This document shows, in pieces, positions 5,325 through 37,386 of a stretch of 37,437 bases of DNA. Within the stretch, counting starts at the first letter, position 1, and each line of letters opens with the position of its first letter. Made by a program: the position numbers and the translations under genes. The DNA is taken from positions 1-37,437 of the IMG/VR virus record IMGVR_UViG_3300025122_000062; one strand, 5' to 3'. The notes under the pieces were generated by a model. It searched no databases, was not told the origin of the DNA, and saw only the letters and a program-made list of their open reading frames with translations. The stretch comes from a virus.

Positions 5325-5918
5325 TTATCTTAAGAGGTGAGGAGCGGCTTCCACAATCCCTGCGTTTGTTACCCGTATATATTCAGGCCGATATTCTGTT
5401 AGATTTCGTGCACCACCATATGATAATGCTGAACGTATTCCATCTACCAACCCATTGATAATAAATTTAACTCCACCTTTATATGGTATCATTGCTGACT
5501 CACCCTCTACATTACTAACAATTCCACCATTATCTTGTTTTGCTTCAAGTGATGCTGAACCTCTGTATCGTTTGTATAACCCTTGTTTAGTTTCTATAAC
5601 CAAGCCTGGTGATTCATCAGTACCAGCTAATAGTGAACCCACCATTACACAATCCGCTCCTAAAGCTAATGCCTTTGATATGTCACCACTATTACGTATA
5701 CCACCATCAGCTATTATCGGTACAGTTGCAACTTGGCTAATATTTATTAAACTCGTTACACTTGGTACACCAAATCCAGTTTGAATTCGTGTACTACATA
5801 ATGAATTGTGTACAATTGTACCATTAATGTTATATGAATGGTCGTTTTCAACCGTTAAATCATACACTACTCCTTTATAATGTTTTTTTGTTATATTTTC
5901 AATTTTTCTTAATTTCAT
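5325..5918 (-). CDS. guaB: IMP dehydrogenase C-terminal half, with split C-intein at its start
   Basis: Residues 1-38 ([20 protein letters not shown], then [18 protein letters not shown]) are a C-intein ending in the HN pair. Ser39 follows as the first extein residue. Residues 39-197 continue IMP dehydrogenase from the catalytic-loop cysteine (SLCSTR), through [10 protein letters not shown] and [14 protein letters not shown], to the C-terminal EAAPHLL. Joined to 6073-6975 by trans-splicing, this gives a complete CBS-less enzyme of about 360 residues, which would oxidise IMP to XMP for GTP supply. The C-intein closely resembles what I recall of the metagenomic IMPDH-1 split intein. Its ATG overlaps the stop of the endonuclease scrap at 5915-6097 (ATGA). 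GMP reductase is a less likely alternative. Confidence 0.88.
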
Positions 5919-6097
5919 AAAATTTCTTTTAATTTCTCCTTATAAGTACCATTTTTTATTTCATGTTCCCATATGCGAATGAGTGTAAATCCACGATCTA
6001 ATGCCCATTTGGTTTTTTCTATATCCTTTTTAATTTTACCGTGTTGAATATTATTTAATTTTCGTAAGAAAATTAAATTTCCAACAAAAAATATTCG
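5915..6097 (-). pseudogene. Remnant of a Vsr-like endonuclease inside the split IMPDH intein
   Basis: An open frame without a proper start reads ...IKKDIEKTKWALDRGFTLIR, then [19 protein letters not shown] and a stop. The pattern 'D..K...L...G...L.IWE.E' is the C-terminal end of Vsr-like free-standing endonucleases. It aligns with the end of the intact gene at 36130-37386 (DNDKKRIDWLESHGYEVLII, then WESD). The nuclease core is missing. It overlaps the 3' end of the N-intein ORF and, by ATGA, the start of the C-intein ORF. The endonuclease gene therefore once filled the break in the gene. Confidence 0.72.
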
Positions 6098-6975
6098 TTA
6101 GATAATTCCGATGCTTCAATCCATTTTGCATATTCGTGGACATTTTCATTAGTAATTATATTTTCAAATTTACTATGAACTACATAAAATTCGTGATTTT
6201 TAGTGCACTCAATACCATTAATTTCCATTATTTCTTCATCACGATCATATTCAAATTTATTTACAACTTTTTGTAATTGACCCGTATGAGTATATACCAT
6301 ATCACCAATTTTTACATCTTCAATACACTTTAACCCATTTTTAGTCAGTACTTTCATATCAGGTGTAAAACACCCATTTCCTACATTTATACGTAACCCA
6401 TCTACACCCGCTTGTTCCAATTCTTCTGCCGCGTCGGCGGTAGCAATGTTACCTGCTATAATATCAACCGTATCTTTTAAATTCAATTTGCACCACCTAA
6501 CCATGTCAATGACTTTTTGGTGGTGACCATGTGCCACATCAATTACAAGAATGTTTGCACCAGCTTCAACTAAATGTTGTGCTCGTTTTCTATCACTTGT
6601 TCGAACACCAATAGCGGCCATTATTGGTGGTTGTTTAATTTCTGAATGCCAGTCATCATACATAAAACCCCAATCTTCTAATTCTCGTTCACCATCTTTG
6701 GTTTTGTATATCCTAGTGTATAGTTCACGTACCATTGTAATTTGATCTGATATGGTCATGAATCTATGTATAACACCCACCCCGCCTAGTTTATATAACT
6801 TCCAAGCCATTTCTAAATCACATATAGTATCCATTGGTGAAGCAACTATTGGTATTATAATACCATATCTTCTACTTACCAACGTTCGTAATGAAACATC
6901 TTTTCTACTTTTGATATTTGAAAATTCAGGTACCAACGATATATCATCATACGTTAGTGCTATTTCGGGTTTCAT
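6073..6975 (-). CDS. guaB: IMP dehydrogenase N-terminal half, with split N-intein at its end
   Basis: Residues 1-201 are the first half of the IMPDH barrel: ALTYDDISLVPEFS, VASPMDT, GGVGVIHR, AAIGVR, LVIDVAHGHH, IAGNIATADAAEEL and a phosphate-loop-like INVGNG. The usual CBS pair is absent, replaced by a short acidic stretch (about 84-112). From Cys202 a 99-residue N-intein follows: CFTPDMKVLTKNG (block N1), IGDMVYTHTG, and CTKNHEFYVV (block N3, with the conserved His). It ends in a stop with no C-terminal intein blocks. The partner ORF is 5325-5918. The insertion point lies immediately before the catalytic Cys loop. The gene's ATG overlaps the stop of an EDxHD remnant. Confidence 0.88.
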   Translation of the reverse strand: MKPEIALTYDDISLVPEFSNIKSRKDVSLRTLVSRRYGIIIPIVASPMDTICDLEMAWKLYKLGGVGVIHRFMTISDQITMVRELYTRIYKTKDGERELEDWGFMYDDWHSEIKQPPIMAAIGVRTSDRKRAQHLVEAGANILVIDVAHGHHQKVIDMVRWCKLNLKDTVDIIAGNIATADAAEELEQAGVDGLRINVGNGCFTPDMKVLTKNGLKCIEDVKIGDMVYTHTGQLQKVVNKFEYDRDEEIMEINGIECTKNHEFYVVHSKFENIITNENVHEYAKWIEASELSNEYFLLEI

Positions 6976-12066: not shown

Positions 12067-12780
12067 TTAGTTACTTATCTGTACCAAGTAATAATCTGAT
12101 GTGTAATTATCAATATCAAAGTGAATAGCCGCTAATCCCTGTGTTGAGATATCCAACACCGCATTTGTGGCATCTTTGTTAGCAACAAGAATCTCTTTCA
12201 AGTATGTAGCTGAAAATGAAATTGGGTCAACATCCTCTGTTACAGATGCATCAACCTCAATTGAAATACGGTTACTGTTAATCGAAGCGTATCCTAAGAT
12301 AATCTTAGCAACACCATCTTTAACCATAAAGGTAAAGTTATCTTCATCAGATAAAGCCGATTTTGCACGAATGAATTTGTTAATAAACTTGTCATCTAAT
12401 TTAATTTGTACATTAAATTCAGGTAACTTTTTCAAATCCGGAACAGTTGGTATTACTGATAAATCAGATAACATATAATTGATTGTTGATGATTTGTCAT
12501 TGAATTTAAGAGATACCAATTTATCCTCAACTTTATTCAATGTCAATGTAACATCCTCACCAAGTACCGATAACATTTTTACCAATTTACTTGTATCATA
12601 TATACCATAAGTGATAGGATCACTTTCAAACTCTTTCATTTGAACCACACCTAATACGGATTTATCATCTGATATAAATGATGTTTTTAATGTTGAAGAG
12701 TCTGATTCCCATTTTACGCTTTCAATAAGTCCGGACAAATGGTATTTGCTGACAAACTTTATCAATTTTGTTTTTTCCAT
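12067..12780 (-). CDS. Sliding clamp (gp45-like DNA polymerase processivity factor)
   Basis: At 237 residues it matches the T4 gp45 clamp in size. The repeated strand-helix pattern fits the two-domain clamp fold: GLIESVKWESDSSTLKTSFI, GIYDTSKLVKMLSVLGEDVT, then INYMLSDLSVIPTVPDLKKL and the ending HFDIDNYTSDYYLVQISN. It is loaded by the products at 3315-4268 and 2402-2887 and would tether the polymerase. It has its own strong-looking promoter (12812-12843), the best match in the window to the Bacteroidota consensus, and heads an operon with the glycosyltransferase and DruA-like genes. Confidence 0.9.
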   Translation of the reverse strand: MEKTKLIKFVSKYHLSGLIESVKWESDSSTLKTSFISDDKSVLGVVQMKEFESDPITYGIYDTSKLVKMLSVLGEDVTLTLNKVEDKLVSLKFNDKSSTINYMLSDLSVIPTVPDLKKLPEFNVQIKLDDKFINKFIRAKSALSDEDNFTFMVKDGVAKIILGYASINSNRISIEVDASVTEDVDPISFSATYLKEILVANKDATNAVLDISTQGLAAIHFDIDNYTSDYYLVQISN

Positions 12781-13093: not shown

Positions 13094-14032
13094 TTAATCT
13101 TCACCAAAGTCAAAAAATACGGATGCAGCCTTGGCTTCATTTACCACTTGTCCCCATCCGAGAACCGAGTAAAAATCTTGTAATTTTTTGAGTAATTCAC
13201 GTTCAAATATCTTATCGTAATCAATATACGTTTTGATAAATTCAGTTATTTCATCGGGATCGTTATATCCCGTAAATCCAACCGCCGAGACTCCAAATGG
13301 ATTGTTTCTCATATATGCCCATTTAATCTTATCAGTATCCCTAACAGGTGCATATTTATATGGTGTTTTAAAGTGTTTCAACATATCATTATATGTTATA
13401 GCGGCTTTAACGTGAGCGGGTGTTCCCTTTTTATATCTAAATAACGTACCATCCGTAACCATATATTTTTTAAGTCCTTTAATAGCTGAATTCTTTGATA
13501 TTTCGGCTATATTAAGTTGGTTCATATTATGTTTGAAATCCATTATTAGATCACGTAATTCATTTTGTGTTTTACCACGTAATATATCAATGAGTACCGT
13601 TTTCATTAGGTTTGCAAATGATTCGGGAAATGATGATCTAACCACGTCCAATCCTTTTACATCTAGTTTATCAACTGGTACACCCTTATCCAAAATAATC
13701 CATTGGGCGTAACGTTTCTTAGCAATCCAAATACCAGCTTTAGCAATATATTCCTTTTTAATCTCCAAACGGTGATTATCTTTGGAAACGTTAAACACAC
13801 TAGGTGCTAACATATCATAGAAATCATTTAGATAATCTTGCATTTCACCAGCAATCTCATCTACGAACTTAGCGATTGTTTCTTGGTCATTATTTTCCCA
13901 AGTTGGCCGGCGATAGTTTAACATTGAAACAGCACTAAAAAATACTGAATCTGTATCAATGTAAATGTTCCAGTCTGACTGTTCCAGTTTTTCAACTGGC
14001 ACCTCAACTCGTTCAATCTTCTTTATAATCAT
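13094..14032 (-). CDS. Family B DNA polymerase, C-terminal piece (motif C and thumb)
   Basis: Motif C is intact as YIDTDSVFFS (24-33), giving the second catalytic aspartate pair. It is followed by the thumb-side KKRY element (105-108) and DVKGLDVVRSSFP. The C-terminus AASVFFDFGED resembles a clamp-binding tail. The first 19 residues (MIIKKIERVEVPVEKLEQS) are not polymerase-like and resemble the start of the window's C-inteins, but there is no C-intein core or terminal HN. The piece must act with 16923-18509 and 15665-16213 to make a polymerase. Its ATG lies inside the 3' end of the endonuclease gene at 14013-15032, a 20-base overlap. Confidence 0.88.
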   Translation of the reverse strand: MIIKKIERVEVPVEKLEQSDWNIYIDTDSVFFSAVSMLNYRRPTWENNDQETIAKFVDEIAGEMQDYLNDFYDMLAPSVFNVSKDNHRLEIKKEYIAKAGIWIAKKRYAQWIILDKGVPVDKLDVKGLDVVRSSFPESFANLMKTVLIDILRGKTQNELRDLIMDFKHNMNQLNIAEISKNSAIKGLKKYMVTDGTLFRYKKGTPAHVKAAITYNDMLKHFKTPYKYAPVRDTDKIKWAYMRNNPFGVSAVGFTGYNDPDEITEFIKTYIDYDKIFERELLKKLQDFYSVLGWGQVVNEAKAASVFFDFGED

Positions 14033-15032
14033 ATTCTGTTATTTCATTTTTGTGATTTATACGAATAAACTTACATTTTAATAGTTTACCAATAATATCT
14101 TGTCTAATTTTATCATGCTCTGATACACCTGGTCTTGTGTGATATCGTTCATCATATTCCAACACTACATTTTTTTCTGTATCATATGCATCTACAAAAA
14201 AACTTGTATTTGGTGGTGAATATTCGCCACCATTCTCAGCGTGTTGAAAATTATACCCATTATCTTTACCATATTGTTCTATTATTGGTATTGAATTTAT
14301 ATTGTATGCTGGTGAAAATACTTTATTTGATTTTACCATCAATTTCATATACTTAATAACTGAATCTGAGATTTGTTTTATTTCACTCGCTGGTCGTGGT
14401 CTGCCATAACACCCATTCTTTTCACCGAGTTTAGCGTTAGAACGATTATCATGATATTTTTGTTCCATTTCATCGGCTTTACGTTTGCCAAATTGATTAA
14501 CCCAACCATCATAATACGCTTTATTTAATTGATGATTAAATTGTCCTACCATTTTATCATCAGCCTCTATGTATAATTTCAACCATTCATCGGGCCAACC
14601 ATATAACTTTTGTCGGTTTTTGAATCGTAATTTAATCCTATCCAATTCCGAATCGGATATCCAATTCTCGTTTATATTTGTTATTATTTTATTTCGGTTC
14701 TTATTATATTCATTATACTGATCTAAATTCCAACCATATTTATCAAGTTTATACTCAAATGAATTACTATATGCTTGCCTATCCTTGTAAAGTTGCCATT
14801 TTATTTCACCCTCAATTTCACCATGTTTTTTAATAAAATTCTCGTATGTATTTTTTCGTTTACCGTGATATTGTTCTTTAGCTTTCTTAGCATCATCTTC
14901 ATTCATTTTTTTGAATATCATAAAATACTCTAATGTTCCTGGTATTCTACTTAACCTCATTCGCTCAGCTTCTTCACCTTTATAACCTTTATCTAACCAA
15001 TATTTTAATGTCCTTGCACTTCCTTTACTCAT
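14013..15032 (-). CDS. EDxHD-type homing endonuclease in the second DNA polymerase break
   Basis: The C-terminal catalytic part reads FFVDAYDTEKNVVLEYDERY, then H, DKIRQDIIGKLLKCKFIRI. It fits the EDxHD subgroup of the PD-(D/E)XK/Vsr superfamily described for free-standing endonucleases in fractured phage genes. The N-terminal two thirds is basic and carries YENFIKKHGEIEGEIKWQLY-like DNA-contact repeats similar to the gene at 36130-37386. There is also a NUMOD3-like NGCYGRPRPASEIKQISDSV. It sits between polymerase motifs B and C and probably cleaves the uninterrupted polymerase allele. Five decayed copies of its tail occur elsewhere. A near-match of the TATATTTATA box (GATATTTATA, 15070-15079) and AAAGGA precede its ATG. 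Confidence 0.8.
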   Translation of the reverse strand: MSKGSARTLKYWLDKGYKGEEAERMRLSRIPGTLEYFMIFKKMNEDDAKKAKEQYHGKRKNTYENFIKKHGEIEGEIKWQLYKDRQAYSNSFEYKLDKYGWNLDQYNEYNKNRNKIITNINENWISDSELDRIKLRFKNRQKLYGWPDEWLKLYIEADDKMVGQFNHQLNKAYYDGWVNQFGKRKADEMEQKYHDNRSNAKLGEKNGCYGRPRPASEIKQISDSVIKYMKLMVKSNKVFSPAYNINSIPIIEQYGKDNGYNFQHAENGGEYSPPNTSFFVDAYDTEKNVVLEYDERYHTRPGVSEHDKIRQDIIGKLLKCKFIRINHKNEITEYDYKED

Positions 15033-15085
15033 ATTATATCCTTTACATTGATACGTTAATGTATCTATGTATAAATATCATATAA

Positions 15086-15175
15086 TTAAGTTTTACATTC
15101 ACTTTTAGATAATTTAGAATTAATCCATATTGTATCTACATCGACTTCTATTTTTTGTATGTTTTTAATCTTCAT
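15086..15175 (-). other. 29-aa ORF resembling the start of a C-intein ORF
   Basis: MKIKNIQKIEVDVDTIWINS plus nine more residues. Its ATG overlaps the end of the EDxHD remnant 15165-15299 just as the polymerase C-terminal piece (MIIKKIERVEVPV) overlaps the intact endonuclease. The likeness of both the junction and the first 13 residues suggests a duplicated endonuclease/C-part junction that has since decayed. It may not be translated. Confidence 0.4.
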
Positions 15176-15299
15176 AAATTGTATCTACATTTTTATCACT
15201 TAATCGTATAAATTTACAATTAAGTATTTCCATTATTTTTTGTTGTCTTTCTAAATCTTTAGTTTGTTGTTTGATATGTAAGTGATATCGTTCATCAAA
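15165..15299 (-). pseudogene. C-terminal remnant of an EDxHD-type endonuclease in the polymerase break
   Basis: Reads FDERYHLHIKQQTKDLERQQ, then KIMEILNCKFIRLSDKNVDT and IYED, stop. The FDERYH and L.CKFIRL signature is the same as in the intact enzyme 14013-15032, which follows downstream. Two endonuclease genes were therefore once present in this break. An in-frame stop at 15300-15302 separates it from the ORF above. Confidence 0.7.
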
Positions 15300-15560
15300 T
15301 CATGTTTTTAATGCATCTAGTTGTAATTCTAAATCAATTCGTTTCTTTTCTTCATTAAAAAATGAACATTTTTTAGATTGAGTGCACATCACACACCAAT
15401 TGCCAATTCCCCACTTTGTACCATCTTCACATGTGTAACTAAGGTGTTCATTTATATAATCATCCATTAACTCTAATACCGCTTCTCGTGGAAGTGAATC
15501 GAATCCCTGCCACTTGTACAATCGGTACTTATCATCATACATGTTTTCTTTTGATTTCAT
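15300..15560 (-). CDS. Hypothetical protein, 86 aa, cysteine cluster
   Basis: Unrecognised. Four cysteines (YTCEDG, NWCVMCTQSKKCSF) could bind zinc. The N-terminal half has SLPREAVLELMDDYINEHLS, a likely helix. It lies within the second polymerase break, downstream of the middle polymerase piece and directly upstream of the EDxHD remnant. It may be cargo brought in with an endonuclease, or a resident gene. No function can be assigned. Confidence 0.45.
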   Translation of the reverse strand: MKSKENMYDDKYRLYKWQGFDSLPREAVLELMDDYINEHLSYTCEDGTKWGIGNWCVMCTQSKKCSFFNEEKKRIDLELQLDALKT

Positions 15561-15587
15561 ATTATTATACTATCTCGTAATATCCTG

Positions 15588-15662
15588 TTACTTTCTCGTT
15601 AATTTCGTTAAGTGTAACCCGGTTACACCCTTATCAAGTTTTTCTATCTTAAATGTTTTCAT
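15588..15662 (-). other. 24-aa ORF following the middle polymerase piece
   Basis: MKTFKIEKLDKGVTGLHLTK and four more residues, starting two bases after the stop of 15665-16213. A -1 shift near AAGGGT would instead give an ending KGCNRVTLNEINEKVTGYYE, which looks more like a normal protein. It may therefore be a frameshifted relic. It contains the palindrome at 15612-15628. Confidence 0.3.
15612..15628. repeat. Perfect 17-base palindrome
   Basis: GTGTAACCCGGTTACAC has two perfect eight-base arms around one central base and is unusually GC-rich for this region. It lies just after the middle polymerase piece. It could be an operator, a short hairpin, or a protein-binding or cleavage site. There is no T-tract after it on the minus strand, so a classic terminator is unlikely. 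Confidence 0.6.
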
Positions 15663-15664
15663 GC

Positions 15665-16213
15665 TTAACTTAATTCATCTGTCATTACTAAATCTTTTGC
15701 CATTATTTCAGCTAATTCACCATTTCGTACTACCTTTATGTATTCAGTTAATTTGTATTGCTTAATCGTATTATCTTCTAATTCAACTTGAACTCTATGT
15801 GGTGAGTTTATTTCATTATTATACTTAGTGTTACCCATATCAGCTGTAGACTTTATAATAAGTTGTCCTGACCCAGTCGTTGCACCGGCGTTATCCACAT
15901 CGTAGAATCTCCAACCAGGCAATCCAAGTACACCATATAAACTGTTAAGTAGTATCTTTTGTACGTGTTGGCGTTTGTTATAATAATTGTATTTGTCGGT
16001 ATCATTTGCTATACCGTATTTTTTCATTAAACCTTTATACTCAACACGTTTATCGAACCAAATGTTCAATATACCTGGAATACAACCTATGTCTTCTGTT
16101 TTTATAATATCACCATTATCGTTTAATTTCAACTCATATCGGGTTAAATGTTCCAACATTGATTCACGGTTGTCAAATTCTAAAATTTTATTATATAACT
16201 CTATTTTTATCAT
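15665..16213 (-). CDS. Family B DNA polymerase, middle piece (fingers, motif B)
   Basis: Residues 44-135 are polymerase: CIPGILNIWFDKRVEYKGLM, then motif B QKILLNSLYGVLGLPGWRFY (85-104) and DNAGATTGSGQLIIKSTADM, ending NTKYNNEI. Residues 1-43 (MIKIELYNKILEFDN...) and 136-182 (VQVELEDNTIKQYKLTEYIK, VVRNGELAEIMAKDLVMTDE) are extra tails. The C-terminal tail looks like block N3 of an intein/Hint domain (V.LEDNT.....Y..V...G....MAKDL...D.L), but no N1 block with a leading Cys or Ser is present. The ORF overlaps the HNH gene by 23 bases. It must associate with the other two pieces to make an active enzyme. Confidence 0.85.
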   Translation of the reverse strand: MIKIELYNKILEFDNRESMLEHLTRYELKLNDNGDIIKTEDIGCIPGILNIWFDKRVEYKGLMKKYGIANDTDKYNYYNKRQHVQKILLNSLYGVLGLPGWRFYDVDNAGATTGSGQLIIKSTADMGNTKYNNEINSPHRVQVELEDNTIKQYKLTEYIKVVRNGELAEIMAKDLVMTDELS

Positions 16214-16883
16214 AATCTACTACGCTCTTACATAATTCTATAAATTCTCGTTGAGTGTACGCTTGTTTCATCATATTAATTTTCGTATACACCCATTGTA
16301 CATTTCCTTTGATATAGCCACGTGATGAATCTATTCTATCAAGAGATGCACTCATATGACCATTTGCGATATTATACCCATCCCGTGGAATAAAATCTAT
16401 ATCTATACCAGTTAATGCACATTTTTTACCTTGTATTTTATACAGTTCCATTAGATAATGACCATCTACGTTATATTCATAACCCCGTTTATGTGCTCTA
16501 TTTTTTATCTTAGTGATGACTGTAGCTGGTATTTCACCGTGCCCGCGCCAGTTCCCACTACCACTACCAACAACCGTACATTTTCGGCAACCATTTGTTG
16601 TACCATTTAACAATCTATTTATTTTAACTGTTGATATATAACCACATTCACATTCACATTTTATCAAACCGCCATCTTTTATTACATCACCTATTACCGT
16701 CCATTTTCTAAAAACATCACCATGTTTGATTTTATCATTATATTTAGACACCCGGTTGGGTCTTTGTTTTTGTGCACATGACCTACATACAGTCTTATCT
16801 AATCGTTTAGCTTCGTAATAACTACTCTCCGTAAACTCACGTGATTTACCACATGACGAACATTTAATTTCATATTGTTTCAT
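16191..16883 (-). CDS. HNH homing endonuclease in the first DNA polymerase break
   Basis: An N-terminal zinc finger has CSSCGKS (about 9-15) and CRSCAQK. A second cysteine set follows (CECECGY, CRKC). The C-terminal HNH nuclease reads KCALTGIDIDF, then SASLDRIDSSRGYIKGNVQW and a closing NMMKQAYTQREFIELCKSVV. This kind of HNH enzyme nicks or cuts intron-less or insertion-less alleles. It lies between polymerase motif A and motif B, and its 3' end overlaps the start of the middle piece. TATATTTATA stands 21 bases before the ATG. It is probably responsible for fracture 1 of the polymerase. Confidence 0.87.
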   Translation of the reverse strand: MKQYEIKCSSCGKSREFTESSYYEAKRLDKTVCRSCAQKQRPNRVSKYNDKIKHGDVFRKWTVIGDVIKDGGLIKCECECGYISTVKINRLLNGTTNGCRKCTVVGSGSGNWRGHGEIPATVITKIKNRAHKRGYEYNVDGHYLMELYKIQGKKCALTGIDIDFIPRDGYNIANGHMSASLDRIDSSRGYIKGNVQWVYTKINMMKQAYTQREFIELCKSVVDYDKNRVI

Positions 16884-16904
16884 ATTTCATATAATTAGTA
16901 TGAC

Positions 16905-16914
16905 TATAAATATA
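16905..16914 (-). promoter_or_regulatory. TATATTTATA box before the HNH gene
   Basis: Exact copy of the ten-base box found before the MGRK ORFs and the endonuclease genes at 32878-33585 and 36130-37386. It lies in the 39-base gap after the stop of the polymerase N-terminal piece and would allow expression of the HNH gene independent of the polymerase transcript. Confidence 0.5.
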
Positions 16915-16922
16915 AAAATATT

Positions 16923-18509
16923 TTATTTAGTGTCATTATCATATATAATTTTTCCAACTTTTTGTTCTTTTACAGATTTATATAACACATTATTAGCTGA
17001 TATTGTGACTCTACCACTATCTAATAATTTCCTAACATCATCAGCTGATATTTCTTTGTTATCGTTTGGGCCAACTGCAATTGATATTGGTTCATTATAC
17101 TCACCACTCTTAAGTTTCAGAATGTCCCAGTCATGATTATTTATTTTCGCCAATTTTGTTTCAGGTGAAATATTCAATGTGATAATAATCATTGGATATA
17201 GTGATGTTAAATCCAAATCATATATCCATTCGTATCTACCTGTAATTGGGTCTTTTACATAAGCACCCATTAAATCAATAACAACACCCCACTCTTTATC
17301 TAATGTTTCTGGAAGTGGTTTTGCCGTTTCAAAATATCCCTGTTCACGGTTAATGCCTATATATGGTATTAGTATTTTACTTGATTTTGATTTATTTATC
17401 TTTAGTGTACCAGTATTTGGTATTTCAGCCAATGAACCCCTTACGTATATACGTGATTCACCCGATATACCCTTTTTGATAACCAATTTTGTTTTTGGTT
17501 TTTTATTCGGAGCAACTATACCACGTTGTTTTAGATACGTTAATAATGCACCCTCTAAGTATTTAGATGAATATACTATATCCTCATATGGCACGTGGCC
17601 TGCGTGACAAATACCACGTGCTAATTCAATGAACTCTAATTTTTTCTCAAACTTAATAATCAATTTGGTATCTACTAAACTATACTCGATAAATTTATCA
17701 AGATTAGTTCTAAATAACTCATCCAAGTTACCTTGATGTTCAATTTTACCCTCACCAAGTTCTAATCTAGCAACTGTATCTAATCTGTAATTAGGTAGTT
17801 CACCAAATGTGAATTTCTTGTACATTACCATGTAGTCTAAACAACTTACACCAGCAATGAACCACCTATCTCGGTAATCTGAATAAAACATCTCGCCGAT
17901 TGGTGATAATCTATTAGCATATACATCACCAAGAACACGTTTTAACCGATTATATATGTATGGTATATCAAAGTAATCAATATTCCAACCTGTAACTATA
18001 TCTGGGTGTATTCCCTCATAAATTTCTAAGAATTTCATGAGTAATTCATGTTCAGTCTGAAATGGTAGTACAATGGCTTCTGGTGTTGTTCGTTCTTGCA
18101 TCGTACCATCTTTATTGAGTACCAATACCCAATATTGATCAGTTGCACTATCATGTAAACTTATAGCAGTAATTTCGTTTTCAGCTGTTTTAACATTAGG
18201 TGCACCCGTTTCGGTTTCGACCTCAATATCAAATGGCATTACTACAATACCCGTAGATACCTCATCACTATCGGTGTACATATCTACTAATACCCGTGTT
18301 GTCTCAGGTACATCGGATTCAAATAAACCCTCTTGTCCTTTTTTAAACTTATATATTTTAGATAACTTGTCACCATACAATGATGTATACTGACCATTCT
18401 CAGCAGGTTCATATGCATACTTAGTGTATGGCATTGTTATGTAACCCCGTTCGTCATCCCAGACATGTACACGGTTACGTTCTTTTTGGTAATAGCAATT
18501 GCGATACAT
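16923..18509 (-). CDS. Family B DNA polymerase, N-terminal piece (exonuclease and motif A)
   Basis: The 3'-5' exonuclease motifs are intact: ExoI FDIEVE (93-98), ExoII NIDYFD (176-181) and ExoIII YSLVD (276-280). Polymerase motif A is DLTSLYP (433-439). The piece ends after SANNVLYKSVKEQKVG with nine novel residues (KIIYDNDTK). In an unbroken enzyme KVG would be followed by IPGILN, found in the next piece (15665-16213). No N-intein is present, so a functional enzyme must form by non-covalent assembly, as in other phage polymerases and reductases split by endonuclease genes. Proofreading should be intact. The start follows the stop of an EDxHD remnant. Confidence 0.93.
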   Translation of the reverse strand: MYRNCYYQKERNRVHVWDDERGYITMPYTKYAYEPAENGQYTSLYGDKLSKIYKFKKGQEGLFESDVPETTRVLVDMYTDSDEVSTGIVVMPFDIEVETETGAPNVKTAENEITAISLHDSATDQYWVLVLNKDGTMQERTTPEAIVLPFQTEHELLMKFLEIYEGIHPDIVTGWNIDYFDIPYIYNRLKRVLGDVYANRLSPIGEMFYSDYRDRWFIAGVSCLDYMVMYKKFTFGELPNYRLDTVARLELGEGKIEHQGNLDELFRTNLDKFIEYSLVDTKLIIKFEKKLEFIELARGICHAGHVPYEDIVYSSKYLEGALLTYLKQRGIVAPNKKPKTKLVIKKGISGESRIYVRGSLAEIPNTGTLKINKSKSSKILIPYIGINREQGYFETAKPLPETLDKEWGVVIDLMGAYVKDPITGRYEWIYDLDLTSLYPMIIITLNISPETKLAKINNHDWDILKLKSGEYNEPISIAVGPNDNKEISADDVRKLLDSGRVTISANNVLYKSVKEQKVGKIIYDNDTK

Positions 18510-19170: not shown

Positions 19171-19497
19171 TTACTTTACCCATTCATTAAATGCCATTTC
19201 ATATGCTTCTACCAATGTAGTAGTTGAACCTTCATTTATGATTTTCCATGCCGTTTGTTCTACCTCATTTCGTAGACCATATGCGTTAGCTTCGGCAAGT
19301 ATTTCTAGTATTTGTTCTTTTTCGTCCATTGTTTTATGTTTTTTAGTTTCTTCGGTATGAGTTCGTCCTGTATTTGCACATGACTGACAATTTGTCTTAG
19401 TTTTATTTGCATATTGCCAATTTCTTTCACGAGTGTAGTTAATCACTTTCCCGCAAGTTGGACAATTTCTCTTCCATTTCTTTAATTCGTTTTTCAT
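19171..19497 (-). CDS. Fusion of a truncated HNH-type zinc finger with a small resident protein
   Basis: Starting at MKNELKKWKRNCPTCGK, residues 1-56 are the zinc-binding and NUMOD3-like start of a cassette endonuclease (NCPTCGK...NCQSCANTGRTHTEETKK). From Met57 (ATG at 19329) the sequence MDEKEQILEILAEANAYGLR, then NEVEQTAWKII...EMAFNEWVK looks like a complete 52-residue phage protein. The nuclease domain is absent. I infer that the cassette decayed by a deletion that joined the finger in frame to the resident gene, which could still start at its own ATG. It ends one base before the NADAR gene. The upstream extension of the frame beyond Met1 runs through the MGRK ORF and is not used here. 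Confidence 0.6.
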   Translation of the reverse strand: MKNELKKWKRNCPTCGKVINYTRERNWQYANKTKTNCQSCANTGRTHTEETKKHKTMDEKEQILEILAEANAYGLRNEVEQTAWKIINEGSTTTLVEAYEMAFNEWVK

Positions 19498-19618
19498 AAT
19501 AAGCCTCCATCTGACGGGTATTATGCTTGTCTTTGTTTTTGTTATACCAACGTTTCCAGTCTGCTCTATTAGCAGCTTTCTTTTCTTCATCGGTATGATA
19601 CTTCTTGTTTCGTCCCAT
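19439..19618 (-). CDS. MGRK leader ORF, copy 4 (59 aa)
   Basis: Starts MGRNKKYHTDEEKKAANRAD, the closest relative of the N-terminus of the chimeric gene at 4892-5290. The C-terminal helix YYEKRIKEMEEKLSNLRESD is shared with copy 3. The box TATATTTATA (19624-19633) is five bases upstream of the ATG. The last 59 bases overlap the zinc-finger ORF 19171-19497 in another frame. The 45 bases between it and the methyltransferase stop hold the box and nothing else recognisable. Confidence 0.65.
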   Translation of the reverse strand: MGRNKKYHTDEEKKAANRADWKRWYNKNKDKHNTRQMEAYYEKRIKEMEEKLSNLRESD

Positions 19619-30155: not shown

Positions 30156-30452
30156 TTATGTAATCTCACAAAATTTAAATGTCCATTCTTTATATGGGCC
30201 TCTAACGTAATGTGTATCATTTTTACAATGTTCTCTCACCCGTTGTGGTGCAACTCCAAGTTTGTTAGAAACTTCAACGGCTGATTCATAAACTGTACTT
30301 GTTCCTTCTAAATCAATAACCTCAATACTTCCCAACCATCTACCATTGTTTGATCCTTTTTTACAGTCACTCCATTTTTTTAAATTCTCTGGTGTGTTTA
30401 TTGTTTTCTTTAATGATGATGATATCCTATCTCGTACAGTTTGGTCACTCAT
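30156..30452 (-). pseudogene. NUMOD3/NUMOD1 DNA-binding part of a homing endonuclease (98 aa)
   Basis: Begins MSDQTVRDRISSSLKKTIN. It then has a NUMOD3-like KKGSNNGRWLG and a NUMOD1-like IDLEGTSTVYESAVEVSNKL, VAPQRVREHC and GPYKEWTFKF. The catalytic GIY-YIG or HNH domain that normally precedes these is missing. It lies between the C-terminal half of NrdJ and the helix-turn-helix tail, so both may come from one or two decayed insertions behind nrdJ. Confidence 0.65.
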
Positions 30453-30499: not shown

Positions 30500-31177
30500 C
30501 TATTCCAACGCACATGAAGCCCCACTACATGCAAGTTCGGCTGATAACTCAGTTGTATCTTCTGCTTCCACTACTTTGGTTAAGTCGATACTTTTAAGTT
30601 GTGAGTATAATTCTTCGTATTCTTTTTTAGTAATGTCTTCAAACGGCATTTGTTTATACGTACCACCATCGAAAGGAATTACGGATATACCGTTATAATG
30701 TCGTTTTTCTCGCCACATCCAATCACGTACCAAATCCCATTCATTATCTTTTACCGAAACTGTACATGATACATTATGGTGATTTTGTCCTTTTCGGTAT
30801 CCATTATGTATCCAATTTTCGGATATAAACTTAACACGTTCCAATAAATCTATCGGTGATTCGTGTCTTGTTATCGCTCCCTTTGGTGCTTGTTGTGGTA
30901 CTGATATTACCGATTGTTGTTCTGGTCTGAAAAACTCATCCTCAATTAATTTTGGATGTCTTTTCTTTAGATATGGATAAATTGATTCATCTTTACCAAT
31001 TCTCATTCGTCTTATATAGTAGTTATTGTGCCACGCATGTATTCCACTACTTGTACCCAACACTAAACTTGTTGTATTATGTGAAAGAGTCCCATTTGAC
31101 ATTTGATACATCGGTTTATTTTCTACCTCAATGTCTACTGTGAACGATTGTGTTATTTCTTTTTTCTTGAATTTCAT
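30500..31177 (-). CDS. nrdJ: Class II ribonucleotide reductase C-terminal half, with split C-intein at its start
   Basis: Residues 1-34 (MKFKKKEITQSFTVDIEVEN, then KPMYQMSNGTLSHN) are a C-intein ending in HN. Thr35 is the first extein residue. The extein starts TTSLVLGTSSGIHAWHNNYY, the finger-loop region of monomeric class II reductases, and ends TTELSAELACSGASCALE. The final CxxxxC pair is the redox shuttle. The ATG overlaps the stop of the N-terminal half (ATGA, 31174-31177), so no endonuclease gene remains in the break. Trans-splicing with 31174-32847 would restore the enzyme, which reduces ribonucleotides using adenosylcobalamin. Confidence 0.88.
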   Translation of the reverse strand: MKFKKKEITQSFTVDIEVENKPMYQMSNGTLSHNTTSLVLGTSSGIHAWHNNYYIRRMRIGKDESIYPYLKKRHPKLIEDEFFRPEQQSVISVPQQAPKGAITRHESPIDLLERVKFISENWIHNGYRKGQNHHNVSCTVSVKDNEWDLVRDWMWREKRHYNGISVIPFDGGTYKQMPFEDITKKEYEELYSQLKSIDLTKVVEAEDTTELSAELACSGASCALE

Positions 31178-32847
31178 TGTATCTGTTCCTTTAACTTATT
31201 TTTTAGTTCATCTTTATTAGAATGCCAATCATCATCCTCTGTTATATCAATTGCTTGTTTCCAAGTGCCGTCTGACATCATAAATTTATGATGTGGTGTA
31301 CATTCAATTATACTACCATCTTCCATTGTAAATTTAACTGTTTCTTCTGTACCATTGATGAATAATTTTGTAATGGAGTTTTCGTTTCCGTTATCATCAT
31401 ACACTTTAATATCAGTATTCACATCATACCATTCTCGGTACTCATTGAGTTTATCATTAAGTTCTATACCATTTTTCTTAAAAATATCATATAAACTCAT
31501 ATCACCATCAGTTGTTCGTATTTTAGTAGACGGTATTTGACACCCTGCAGGTTTTACTGATGTTGTTCTTGCCGCTGGGTTTATACCAATTATCTCAGCA
31601 ACACGTTTGTTTTCATCATTTACAACGTGAGTTGCTGAACTATAATCTAATAATAAATTACCCTTTGATGCAATACCTGTCATACTAACACCTAGTAGGG
31701 CATCCTTTTCAGTAGTTCTAGCCCATACATCACGTAGATAATGAAAATCAGTATAACCACCTTGTAATGTACCTATGAAAGCGGCTGCCTTTGCACGTTG
31801 ATTAAAATCTTCTTGACCATTCACACTACTCATGTTAATCTCGGTAAGATTACAAAATTGATTAGATCTTAATGAAATTTCAGCACAAGGATTTGTACCC
31901 CAATCCATATCATTTGTAAAGTATATTCCAGGTTCACCTGCTTTACTAGCTTTCATCCGCTCCCACAAATGATGGAATTTAGATTTAGTGATTTTATGTC
32001 TAAGTATTACAGCACTGTTATTAGCTCTACCACGTTGTGGATTTCTAATGTACCAGTCACCAATCTTACATGATAACATAGCAGAATCATTTAGGTTAAA
32101 CAACGCTATCATTGCCGCCCTACGAATACCACCTGCTAAAACTGCATCAGCGATATGACACATAATGTCATGTGCTTCAAGTGATGATAAACTTGAGTTA
32201 TCTTCCTTTTCACGTAACATACCCTCTAATTTAGTAAGAGCCAGTCTAAGTGGTTCAGGACCAGGTGCTCTACCACCTGCCGTGATTAATAATGCACCCT
32301 TTTCTCGGATGTCACTATAATCAAATTGAATATGTGAATTGATTTTACCTGTATATGATTTGAATAGTACCTTAACAGCATCAGCCCAACCTATAATACT
32401 ATCTTGTATCACATATTTTCGTTTTCTATCATAATTAGGTTTATGAATTTCAGGCAGGTTTTCAATATGGTGTGTTTGTACACTATAACCCACTCCTGTG
32501 CCACCTAGTAGAAGAAACATAGTTTCCGAAAAACTGTATATTGAATCTATTGGTAGGAATGCACAATTATAAATTCTTGAATTGTTTATCTCAATAGGTC
32601 GTCCACCAAACTGCATTGACCTCATTGAGGGTAATACTCTTTTAGTTAATACAAATTTATTATATACATCTTCGATTTCACCCGCTATCATTGGGTATTT
32701 TCTCACATGCATGTCTTTATTTCGGGTCACAATTTCTAACCAATTCTCCCTACGATTTTCCTTCTCTAAATGTCTAGCGTATTTGGTGTGTACCACAATA
32801 TCACTAAGTATTCTTTTATCCAAATCTAATTGATTCGTTGTGTTCAT
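31174..32847 (-). CDS. nrdJ: Class II ribonucleotide reductase N-terminal half, with split N-intein at its end
   Basis: Residues 1-435 are reductase: Cys95 in YNCAF, GGTGVGYSVQ, IQDSIIGWADA, GGRAPGPEPL, and Cys321 (NPCAEI) with Cys332 (FCNLTEI). The 11-residue spacing of the last two matches the thiyl-radical and partner cysteines of monomeric class II enzymes. The extein ends SVKPAG. From Cys436 (CQIPSTKIRTTDG) a 122-residue N-intein follows, with block N3 CTPHHKFMMSDGTW and an acidic-basic tail. Adenosylcobalamin dependence lets it work without oxygen or a second subunit. The partner is 30500-31177. The intein differs from the IMPDH one, so the two are separate insertions. Confidence 0.9.
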   Translation of the reverse strand: MNTTNQLDLDKRILSDIVVHTKYARHLEKENRRENWLEIVTRNKDMHVRKYPMIAGEIEDVYNKFVLTKRVLPSMRSMQFGGRPIEINNSRIYNCAFLPIDSIYSFSETMFLLLGGTGVGYSVQTHHIENLPEIHKPNYDRKRKYVIQDSIIGWADAVKVLFKSYTGKINSHIQFDYSDIREKGALLITAGGRAPGPEPLRLALTKLEGMLREKEDNSSLSSLEAHDIMCHIADAVLAGGIRRAAMIALFNLNDSAMLSCKIGDWYIRNPQRGRANNSAVILRHKITKSKFHHLWERMKASKAGEPGIYFTNDMDWGTNPCAEISLRSNQFCNLTEINMSSVNGQEDFNQRAKAAAFIGTLQGGYTDFHYLRDVWARTTEKDALLGVSMTGIASKGNLLLDYSSATHVVNDENKRVAEIIGINPAARTTSVKPAGCQIPSTKIRTTDGDMSLYDIFKKNGIELNDKLNEYREWYDVNTDIKVYDDNGNENSITKLFINGTEETVKFTMEDGSIIECTPHHKFMMSDGTWKQAIDITEDDDWHSNKDELKNKLKEQIQ

Positions 32848-32877: not shown

Positions 32878-33585
32878 TTACTTTTTCGTATACTCCCAAC
32901 GATATCCACCGGCAGTTTTGTATCCATATTTTTTTTGGCAACACCCCAATATAGAGTCGCACCTAATCCCTAAGTTTATATAAGCTTCATTTGCCGAATC
33001 CCATTTTTTTATAAAATGTCCATTCAATGAATATTGGTGAACTGTATGTCCAAGTGAACGTCTTATCTTATAAATACTTTCATCTGTATGATGTTTATTA
33101 TACATTCCATTCTTCTCTCCAGTTACCGATTTTGCAATCTTTTGTTTATGTATATCTGATAACTTATTACCCTTACAGTTAGTATTACCTTTCATCATTT
33201 GACTCATATGTTTTTTATATGAATCACTTCTACGTTTTCCTGTATTTGCTACACTAATTTTTTTTCGTGTACTATCACATATCGACTCTCCAGGTCGGCG
33301 GCCTTCACCACCGACTTTAAGATTCATACATTCTTTTTTAGCAATTTCATTGAGATTTACAATTTCCTCCTCACGTGATTTTAATTCTTCTCTGGTTTTA
33401 CAGAATTCTAAGATTTCACGACTGTGGTTTTCTTTACCGTATTTATTTAATGAATATCGTAATCTTCTACCACTACCTAGATATCCATCATCTAAATCAT
33501 CTGCACTGTGCATTCCTATATAATATTTTCCACTTATTGTATTTGTGGTCTTGTATATGAAATGAAATTGTTTTTCTTTTCTCAT
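32878..33585 (-). CDS. GIY-YIG homing endonuclease with NUMOD3 and NUMOD1 motifs
   Basis: The GIY-YIG core is HFIYKTTNTISGKYYIGMHS, with the Arg-rich RRLRYSLNKYGKENH and Glu in REEEIVNLNEI. NUMOD3 motifs follow (CDSTRKKISVANTGKRRSDS, then GEKNGMYNKHHTDESIYKIR). A NUMOD1 helix-turn-helix ends GYKTAGGYRWEYTKK. I chose the ATG at 33583-33585. The frame is open eight codons further, but those codons overlap the TATATTTATA box. The gene lies directly upstream of nrdJ and may target the NrdJ coding region. Confidence 0.88.
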   Translation of the reverse strand: MRKEKQFHFIYKTTNTISGKYYIGMHSADDLDDGYLGSGRRLRYSLNKYGKENHSREILEFCKTREELKSREEEIVNLNEIAKKECMNLKVGGEGRRPGESICDSTRKKISVANTGKRRSDSYKKHMSQMMKGNTNCKGNKLSDIHKQKIAKSVTGEKNGMYNKHHTDESIYKIRRSLGHTVHQYSLNGHFIKKWDSANEAYINLGIRCDSILGCCQKKYGYKTAGGYRWEYTKK

Positions 33586-33588
33586 ACT

Positions 33589-33598
33589 TATAAATATA
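33589..33598 (-). promoter_or_regulatory. TATATTTATA box before the GIY-YIG gene
   Basis: Exact ten-base box three bases before the chosen ATG, which supports that start. Same position class as in the MGRK cassettes. Confidence 0.52.
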
Positions 33599-33626
33599 AG
33601 AAAGTACAAAAAACAACCACATGTTT

Positions 33627-35684: not shown

Positions 35685-36143
35685 TTATCTCATTGTGTCT
35701 AAATATTTTTTGTGCAGTAACTCTTTCTGTACGAGTTTCCCACTTGATGCCTCTTTTGATGATAGAATACCGGCCGGTGTGTTACCATCATATATCTCAA
35801 TAAACCCAGTATTTGTATCCATTTTACATGGAAACGTAATACCATCGGGGCCAAATCTGTTTTTCATAATGTGAGCTCTCGCGGTATTGTTAACCTTATC
35901 AGCTGTTTTTCTACTCCAACTCATAATAAAGTCGGCATTCATTACTTTTGCATATGAATCTGCTATTTTATCAGCCTCGATTACCTCTGAATCAATTGCC
36001 GAATTATGAGTATATACATCATTTGCGTAAAACATATGGGTATCTTCTACTGTTATATCTACTGTTTCTCGTTCACCGATTAACTCTATGGATACAATTT
36101 CATCCATTATAAAGTCTTTTGGGGTTAAGTTATGTTGTTTCAT
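35685..36143 (-). CDS. Replicative helicase (gp41/DnaB-like) C-terminal part, with split C-intein at its start
   Basis: Residues 1-47 are a C-intein: MDEIVSIELIGERETVDITV, then EDTHMFYANDVYTHN (ending in HN). Ser48 follows. Residues 48-152 continue a DnaB-type helicase: SAIDSEVIEADKIADSYAKV, MNADFIMSWSRKTADKVNNT, then IMKNRFGPDGITFPCKM. The pattern matches the region after Walker B in gp41/DnaB and the known gp41-1 fracture site (SSSD-type extein start). The N-terminal half must lie right of the window. A second possible start, Met13, would give a C-intein length closer to gp41-1. The ORF overlaps the endonuclease gene upstream by 14 bases. Confidence 0.82.
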   Translation of the reverse strand: MKQHNLTPKDFIMDEIVSIELIGERETVDITVEDTHMFYANDVYTHNSAIDSEVIEADKIADSYAKVMNADFIMSWSRKTADKVNNTARAHIMKNRFGPDGITFPCKMDTNTGFIEIYDGNTPAGILSSKEASSGKLVQKELLHKKYLDTMR

Positions 36144-37386
36144 TTATAAAATTTATGCATATGTTTATAATTTGTTCTTTGTCTTTTTTGTAATCTGATT
36201 CCCAGATTATTAATACTTCGTAACCATGTGATTCCAACCAATCTATTCGTTTTTTATCATTGTCCCACAACTCTTCTGCTATTACATGATTATTTGGATG
36301 TGTTAATATTTCATTCTTTTTGTATTGTTTAGGATTTGCGTGCCAAAAATCACCGTTAAATTCTATTATTTTATTACCACATTTGAAGTCTACTTGAATA
36401 TATGAATCAATATTAGTTACAAACTTACATTCTTCGTTTAACTCTGCAAATTTAATTTTTTGTTGGAGTTCATCGGATAATGCAACTGATACGTTCCAGA
36501 ATAATTCTTGTGATATTTTACTATATACCTCTGGTTTGGAATTTAACCACGGACCCATCCGTTTAATATATTCATTACGTGCTAGTTTGCTACCATACCG
36601 TTCAACAAAATATGGATATGTGTTTATGTACGATTGACGTTTACAAAATAATTCATATCGTTCTTTACCAATTTCATCACCATATCTATTAACAAATGAA
36701 TCCAATGAAGTATTATTTTTTAATTTATGACACATTTTAGTTCCGATAACTTCACCGAATTCATCAATGTATCGTTGTAATGATACCATATAGCTCTGGC
36801 GTTTATTCCTAATATTCCATCGTTTATACCCATCTTCTATACCATGTCGTTCCTGATATTCTTCTAAGGTTCTGCCATTTTTCCATCTTTTATTCTTGAA
36901 GTTTTCCCTTTGTGTGTTTAGTTTTTTTGTTAATGTTTCCTGCCATTTTTGTTTACCTAGTAACTCGCCGTATTTTTCTACAAAACGTTGCTCTGAAAAG
37001 CTAACCTTTGATGTACATAACTCTTGCCATTTTTGTTTCCCGTATTTCTTAACATATGTATTTTTACTCACCGAGTTCTTAAATGTATTAATACGTTCTG
37101 TGTGTAATTGTGTGCCCACTACATCACCATACCTACCAATATAACTATTTAACGTTATACTATCCCGTTTAAATTGTTTACTATTATGTATCAGCGTTAC
37201 CCAGTCATCACCTACATTATATTTAATTAATGATGTAATCTGTAATGCCTTGTTTTGAATTTCACGTTTAGTAAATTGTATTACAATTTTATTTAGTTGC
37301 TCTACGATATTATCCGTTATCTTTTCAAATTCATTAAAAGGTTTTATTCTTAAAATATGTTCCGCGTTTTTATAATATAATTCCAT
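36130..37386 (-). CDS. Vsr/EDxHD-type homing endonuclease in the helicase break
   Basis: The C-terminal catalytic region has QVDFKCGNKIIEFNGDFWHA, then NPKQYKK and DNDKKRIDWLESHGYEVLII with WESD. These are the D, E and 'GDFWHANP' elements of Vsr-like free-standing endonucleases known from fractured phage genes. The first 280 residues carry about seven repeats of the form 'Y(V/I)..YGE..GK..W' (for example YVKKYGKQKWQEL, RFVEKYGELLGKQKW, SFVNRYGDEIGKERY), probably DNA-binding. It is the most complete gene of its kind here and sits next to the C-intein half of the helicase. The box TATATTTATA and AAAGAG precede the start. Confidence 0.82.
   Translation of the reverse strand: MELYYKNAEHILRIKPFNEFEKITDNIVEQLNKIVIQFTKREIQNKALQITSLIKYNVGDDWVTLIHNSKQFKRDSITLNSYIGRYGDVVGTQLHTERINTFKNSVSKNTYVKKYGKQKWQELCTSKVSFSEQRFVEKYGELLGKQKWQETLTKKLNTQRENFKNKRWKNGRTLEEYQERHGIEDGYKRWNIRNKRQSYMVSLQRYIDEFGEVIGTKMCHKLKNNTSLDSFVNRYGDEIGKERYELFCKRQSYINTYPYFVERYGSKLARNEYIKRMGPWLNSKPEVYSKISQELFWNVSVALSDELQQKIKFAELNEECKFVTNIDSYIQVDFKCGNKIIEFNGDFWHANPKQYKKNEILTHPNNHVIAEELWDNDKKRIDWLESHGYEVLIIWESDYKKDKEQIINICINFINETT

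Follow-up and report, generated by a model that had tools for sequence, protein, structure and literature searches.

A phage family B DNA polymerase gene fractured into three open reading frames, with a degenerate split intein at the second break

In the virus record IMGVR_UViG_3300025122_000062, the gene for a gp43-type family B DNA polymerase (PolB) is fractured into three minus-strand open reading frames (ORFs A, B and C), each predicted to encode a separate chain that carries one of the polymerase motifs A, B and C. The record, analysed here over its full length of 37,437 nucleotides and referred to as the window, is a 37.4 kb fragment of an incomplete genome. Each of the two breaks contains a gene for a predicted homing endonuclease, and the second break is flanked by the inner halves of a split intein that lacks both splice junctions. 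The reading that accounts best for these data, and which we regard as probable, is that homing endonucleases fractured the polymerase, that its three chains assemble non-covalently, and that the dead split intein possibly acts as a clip between B and C.

Piece A (16923..18509, 528 aa) carries the N-terminal domain, the 3'-5' exonuclease and the palm with motif A; piece B (15665..16213, 182 aa) carries the fingers and motif B, followed by a non-polymerase tail; and piece C (13094..14032, 312 aa) carries the palm motif C, KKRY and the thumb. Pfam searches recognised all three: A matched DNA_pol_B_exo1 (E 8e-24) and DNA_pol_B (7e-6), and B and C each matched DNA_pol_B (E 5e-13 and 3e-8, respectively). 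The 856 positions of phrog_262 (gp43-type DNA polymerase) were covered successively by A (32-461), B (440-569) and C (556-841). These stretches are nearly complementary, and the polymerase core is complete. A contains Exo I (FDIEVE), Exo II (NIDYFD) and Exo III (YSLVD), and the polymerase motifs A (DLTSLYP), B (KILLNSLYG) and C (YIDTDS) and KKRY follow in an order colinear with gp43; this motif set identifies a gp43-type family B enzyme. A sequence-only reading of the window had proposed three polymerase ORFs that retain every catalytic motif, separated by an HNH gene in the first break and an EDxHD gene in the second, and this layout stood in full. The same reading had overlooked the split-intein remnant at break 2, the other split-intein-fractured genes of the window and the recurrence of break 2 in other phages.

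The polymerase was compared with about 150 relative loci from viral contigs (designated L and a number), nearly all of which carry one uninterrupted polymerase gene; both breaks are therefore secondary. The near-identical contig L088, which comes from another metagenome record, has the identical three-part layout with 4 mismatches in 8.6 kb, making an assembly error unlikely. Among the loci compared, the three-part form was found only in this virus, that is, in the window and L088. Motif B and motif C are spaced by 49 or 50 residues, without interruption, in 118 relatives, indicating that break 2 is secondary. Both marks of a split made by a homing endonuclease were thus found, namely uninterrupted homologues in relatives and an endonuclease gene within the break. 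Alignment to RB69 gp43 placed break 1 at about residues 468/469 and break 2 at about residues 608-615, in the loop before the motif C strand. Residues 468/469 mark the palm/fingers boundary of RB69 gp43. Each of the three pieces is close to one structural module.

Ratios of non-synonymous to synonymous substitution rates (dN/dS), calculated against the locus L004 (about 90% identical), were 0.077 for A (computed up to ISPETK / motif A only) and 0.076 for the C core; the core of B gave 0.036 and its tail 0.17 (P 1e-4). When changes in C were polarised with L005 as the outgroup, the window branch showed 31 synonymous versus 16 non-synonymous changes and the L004 branch 20 versus 8; C is under purifying selection on both. 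The second polymerase gene for which the sequence-only reading had recommended a search was not found in the available sequence, which comprised the window (a 37 kb fragment), the other split contigs and the unannotated 484 kb huge-phage record LR756508. The sole PolB of LR756508 is itself split at break 2. These results bear on the possibility that the fractured gene encodes a decaying or passenger polymerase, replication being carried out by an intact polymerase encoded elsewhere. Such decay would agree with the incompleteness of the genome, of which 37 kb is available, and with further interruptions of motif C in L004 (TAAATG) and L069 (a hairpin with a stop codon). It is opposed by dN/dS values of 0.04-0.08 in all pieces, by the purifying selection on C along both branches, by the adjoining sliding clamp gene downstream of the polymerase (12067..12780, minus strand; phrog_223, E 2e-13) and by the lack of another PolB in the split contigs and in LR756508. 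Polymerase decay was rejected on the dN/dS values, and we consider a passenger polymerase rather unlikely. Purifying selection on every piece and the lack of a second PolB in the available sequence support an enzyme assembled from three chains.

Break 1 is occupied by a predicted homing endonuclease gene of the HNH/endonuclease VII-like type (16191..16883, minus strand; phrog_3322, E 4e-23; phrog_1035, E 3e-19), which begins 39 bp after A and overlaps the start of B by 23 bp at its 3' end. A extends past motif A to the position homologous to VLYRTDKVG.IP and B begins upstream of the same position, the two being redundant over about 20-25 homologous residues. The 3' end of A after motif A (16923..17171, minus strand; ISPETK...DNDTK), which ends beyond the homologue of the palm/fingers junction, is diverged from L004, a locus without break 1, unlike the rest of A, which is 96% identical to it. 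This diverged end is consistent with co-conversion of flanks during homing. The first 43 residues of B were also considered as an intein piece, a candidate that was dropped because these residues do align, if weakly, to the polymerase.

Endonuclease ORFs at both breaks could also belong to self-splicing introns that are removed from the RNA, and group I introns are present in gene 43 of phages 25 and JSE (PMC2993671). Rfam searches at the gathering threshold and at a permissive one (E<=5) gave no relevant match, and no group I or group II catalytic core was found at the breaks; the intron hypothesis was rejected on the Rfam result. The arrangement of the locus also argues against it: only 39 bp separate A from the HNH gene; the HNH gene runs 23 bp into B and the EDxHD gene 20 bp into C; some homologous sequence occurs redundantly in both A and B; and the added parts of B and C are conserved protein sequence, with a stop codon in B and a start codon in C. 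Removal of the breaks by RNA splicing is therefore highly improbable.

Break 2 contains a predicted EDxHD (Vsr-like) homing endonuclease gene (14013..15032, minus strand), recognised by its residues (VLEYDERYH..HD..R, in which both the ED and the HD pattern were found) and by relatives that occupy break 2 in L005, L028, L150 and L151. At its 3' end the gene runs 20 bp into the start of C, and its dN/dS against L005 is 0.18. The break also contains a small conserved ORF of 86 aa (15300..15560, minus strand; dN/dS 0.13), found in L004 with 84% identity. Two fossils, both on the minus strand, sit between this ORF and the EDxHD gene: the 3' end of an older EDxHD endonuclease (15165..15299; FDERYHLHIKQ...IYED*) and the 5' end of an older C piece (15130..15175), a 46-bp stretch identical to the start of the L004 C piece that stops where the present EDxHD element begins. 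Together, the endonuclease fossil and the C-head fossil indicate repeated insertion at this site. Break 2 is also present in L028, which is nested among relatives with an intact gene, and further away in L150, L151 and LR756508, and the polymerase tree requires at least two changes of state. Collectively, the fossils, the nesting of L028, the distant occurrences and the changes of state indicate that break 2 was hit repeatedly. In the two divergent phages L151 (5495-9054) and L150 (3167-6800), break 2 contains NUMOD3-EDxHD-like genes; L150 additionally has an HNH gene overlapping the start of the polymerase.

B continues about 45 residues beyond the polymerase sequence (KYNNE), and C opens with about 12-20 residues of split-intein-like sequence ahead of NIYIDTDS. 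The B tail (residues 138-182; 15668..15802, minus strand) corresponds to the inner half of an N-intein, from block B to the N4 region, and the C head (first ~20 residues, MIIKKIERVEV...; 13973..14032, minus strand) to the beginning of a split-intein C-half. Homologous tails were found in L004, L069 and LR756508 and a partial one in L151; heads of the form MKIKKI..I were found in L004, L005, L028, L069, LR756508 and L151. The tail in L069 matched PF14890 Intein_splicing at positions 51-94 of 155 (E 0.002), and the best PDB match of the tail-plus-head profile was the AceL NrdHF split intein (E 0.024), colinear across the split point. Comparison by hhalign with a profile built from 8 junction-complete split inteins of this virus and its relatives gave P 1.7e-7 with a probability of 93.8 for tail plus head; the tail alone gave P 5.7e-6. 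The maximum scores of 200 column shuffles were 17.6 versus 41.4 for tail plus head and 15.3 versus 32.7 for the tail. AlphaFold2 modelled the tail as a four-stranded beta meander with a predicted local distance difference test score (pLDDT) of 78-87 within a whole model that was poor (mean 69; predicted template modelling score, pTM, 0.39). Foldseek superposed the tail part on the inteins 6rpp, 2lcj and 5bkh at 1.5-1.7 Å over 41-43 residues (probability 0.80-0.91), with E-values that were not significant. Pfam, PDB, hhalign and Foldseek thus place Hint-family sequence on both sides of break 2. Break 2 descends from a split-intein arrangement, of which the tail and the head are the inner halves across the natural split point. 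Hidden Markov model comparison of the tail with both LR756508 cis inteins gave no match, and split inteins from this virus group were needed; searches of viral contigs with the tail alone or the endonuclease alone returned no additional tail-bearing viruses.

An active split intein would heal break 2 after translation by joining B covalently to C. Tail and head are colinear with split-intein halves, and junction-complete split inteins are found in IMPDH, NrdJ and gp41 of the same window (for gp41, the C-half only). Nevertheless, Cys1 or Ser1 and block A are absent after the polymerase sequence of B, where the helix that follows motif B leads directly into block-B-like strands, and block F/G and HN are absent before motif C, where the ~20-residue head leads into NIYIDTDS. 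L004, L069 and LR756508 lack the identical ends. With both splice-junction ends absent, B and C cannot be spliced on known chemistry. A functional split intein at break 2 was rejected for its missing splice residues, and we regard covalent joining of B to C as extremely unlikely.

Several observations weigh against a three-chain enzyme clipped together by an intein remnant. The intein match spans only about 55 residues. The tail and head sequences of the window alone matched no Pfam intein model, and a PDB search with the tail alone returned P-type ATPases (weak) and no inteins; the tail-alone sequence evidence was therefore treated as weak until the profile-profile and structural tests. The Foldseek E-value of the whole model was not significant (1.6), despite the tight local match. 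The low conservation of the C head (43% identity to L004) makes a clip less convincing, and L150 has break 2 without a tail. Finally, the window is a genome fragment, and an intact polymerase may be encoded elsewhere.

Given the short match and the P-type ATPase strands that score alike with the tail alone, tail and head might be an unrelated, small beta-rich clip with no intein ancestry. We find this unlikely: the two align in order across the point at which natural inteins are split, all four comparisons (Pfam, PDB, hhalign and Foldseek) indicate inteins, and the genome is full of split inteins. More serious is the possibility that the polymerase does work as three chains while tail and head are functionless fossils of a former split intein, as the fast drift of the C head, the missing tail of L150 and the partial tail of L151 would suggest. 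Against this, the tail is under purifying selection, three lineages whose polymerases are as little as about 36-41% identical share the same two-end truncation, and the tail is predicted as a compact fold. We are doubtful of the fossil explanation and rate it as somewhat unlikely.

Returning to the fractured polymerase with a B-C clip, we propose the following course. The gp43-type polymerase gene of a T4-like or cyanophage-like phage would have been fractured twice by free-standing homing endonucleases, with an HNH gene entering at the palm/fingers boundary and EDxHD genes arriving repeatedly at a site immediately ahead of motif C. The start codons of B and C lie within the end of the preceding endonuclease gene, and chains A, B and C most likely join non-covalently into one active polymerase and exonuclease. 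B ends in the inner part of an N-intein and C opens with the first C-intein strand, both without the splice junctions, and tail and head may have been retained as a docking clip between the two chains.

Assembly of the three chains into an active enzyme is most likely, by analogy with gp43A/gp43B of phage 25 and NrdA of Aeromonas phage Aeh1, which are active in pieces. In phage 25 the two gp43 chains purify together and show activity (Petrov et al. 2010, cited in PMC2988022), and insertion of mobE into NrdA produced a genes-in-pieces enzyme that stays active (PMC2988022). The most speculative step is the persistence of tail and head as a B-C clip. That selection has kept a splicing-dead split intein as a non-covalent docking clip beside the active site, joining two of the three chains, is a tentative proposal, which we hold as plausible rather than probable. 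Native split inteins assemble by charge-driven capture and collapse, in which the inner regions meet first (PMC13014065). In most lineages, with the exception of L069, the heads are basic and the tails acidic, and by analogy this charge pattern would be in line with such an assembly.

Two-part gp43, split-intein PolB and fractured genes with EDxHD enzymes are already known. In the split gp43 of Aeromonas phages 25 and 44RR and Acinetobacter phage Acj61, separate gp43-type PolB genes occur with homing endonucleases, as here. Those of T4-related phages consist of two chains, whereas three are found here; the 43A of Acj61 ends in the fingers beyond the GVIP motif, a site at which neither of the present breaks lies; and the accounts consulted for these phages report no intein remnants, in contrast to the remnant at break 2. 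Fractured genes of the type described by Dassa et al. 2009 have an EDxHD endonuclease between the gene halves, as at break 2, but the polymerase intein halves described here are without both splice junctions. The PolB1 intein of Aes123 (PMC13014065) and the split PolB of MIJ3 (PMC6892783) likewise combine a split PolB with an intein, and in MIJ3 an HNH gene, also present here, lies between the PolB halves. Their inteins have full splice blocks, whereas the present remnant, about 8-10 residues ahead of motif C, lacks both of its ends, and the present gene has a second break. The NrdA of Aeh1 shares an endonuclease-made split with the polymerase but is a different enzyme, in two chains and with no known intein remnant. 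The polymerase of LR756508, the one PolB of its record, has the same break 2 with homologous tail and head but is not broken at break 1. At this locus (L084:10001-17925), two complete cis inteins interrupt motif B (KILIN|C...Q|SVYG) and motif C (YTD|S...HN|TDS). A limited literature search found neither a family B polymerase whose motifs A, B and C are on three different chains nor a conserved intein core that lacks splice junctions at a gene break.

Three other genes of the window, all on the minus strand, are split-intein fractures of the kind described by Dassa et al. 2009. The N-part of IMPDH (6073..6975) ends in an N-intein with Cys1 (CFTPDMKV...) and its C-part (5325..5918) starts with a complete C-intein (...IVHN|S; PF14890 positions 120-155). 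In the NrdJ-type ribonucleotide reductase, the N-part (31174..32847) ends in an N-intein with Cys1 and the C-part (30500..31177) starts with a complete C-intein (...LSHN|T). The C-part of the gp41-type helicase (35685..36143), which adjoins an endonuclease ORF (36130-37386), starts with a complete C-intein (...YTHN|S), the N-part lying outside the window. Judged from their sequences, break 2 appears to lie among working relatives of the same split-intein element. Near NrdJ, a GIY-YIG/NUMOD3 gene (32878-33609) and a short NUMOD-like ORF (30156-30452) are homing-endonuclease-like. In the virus represented by L069, NrdJ is in three pieces with two complete split inteins (L162/L173), which would provide a precedent for an enzyme whose three gene pieces are joined by splicing.

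Piece A contains an extra segment of about 70 residues between the exonuclease and motif A (17280..17498, minus strand). Only L004 and, with 24% identity, LR756508 share this segment, and structural comparison gave no convincing match. Upstream of the polymerase, of two overlapping ORFs (19171-19590 and 19439-19618), one is likely what is left of a NUMOD3/EDxHD-type endonuclease, the intact form of which is present in L004 (1763-2467). Motif C itself is interrupted in two relatives. In L069 (5902-6035), about 42 nt with a strong hairpin (TCTCCCCG...CGGGGAGA) and an in-frame TAA interrupt YID|TDS; the insert, present as a single copy in a single contig, is flanked by matching GAT codons with GGGGAG upstream of the second, and resembles a translational-bypass element of the T4 gene 60 type or a palindromic insertion. 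In L004 (6001-6100), and likewise in L086 and L087, TAAATG lies within motif C, stopping the C head after ...NIYIDT and opening a new chain at the ATG (MDSVFF). Motif C of L004 is thereby split between two chains, with the catalytic Asp at position 2, and purifying selection continues downstream.

The polymerase locus records successive endonuclease invasions at one catalytic motif. Break 2 may offer a natural small clip beside the polymerase active site, and its truncated intein suggests how a selfish splicing element can become a structural part of the host enzyme. If the proposal is correct, the dead-intein clip would represent a route from protein splicing to obligate subunit assembly.

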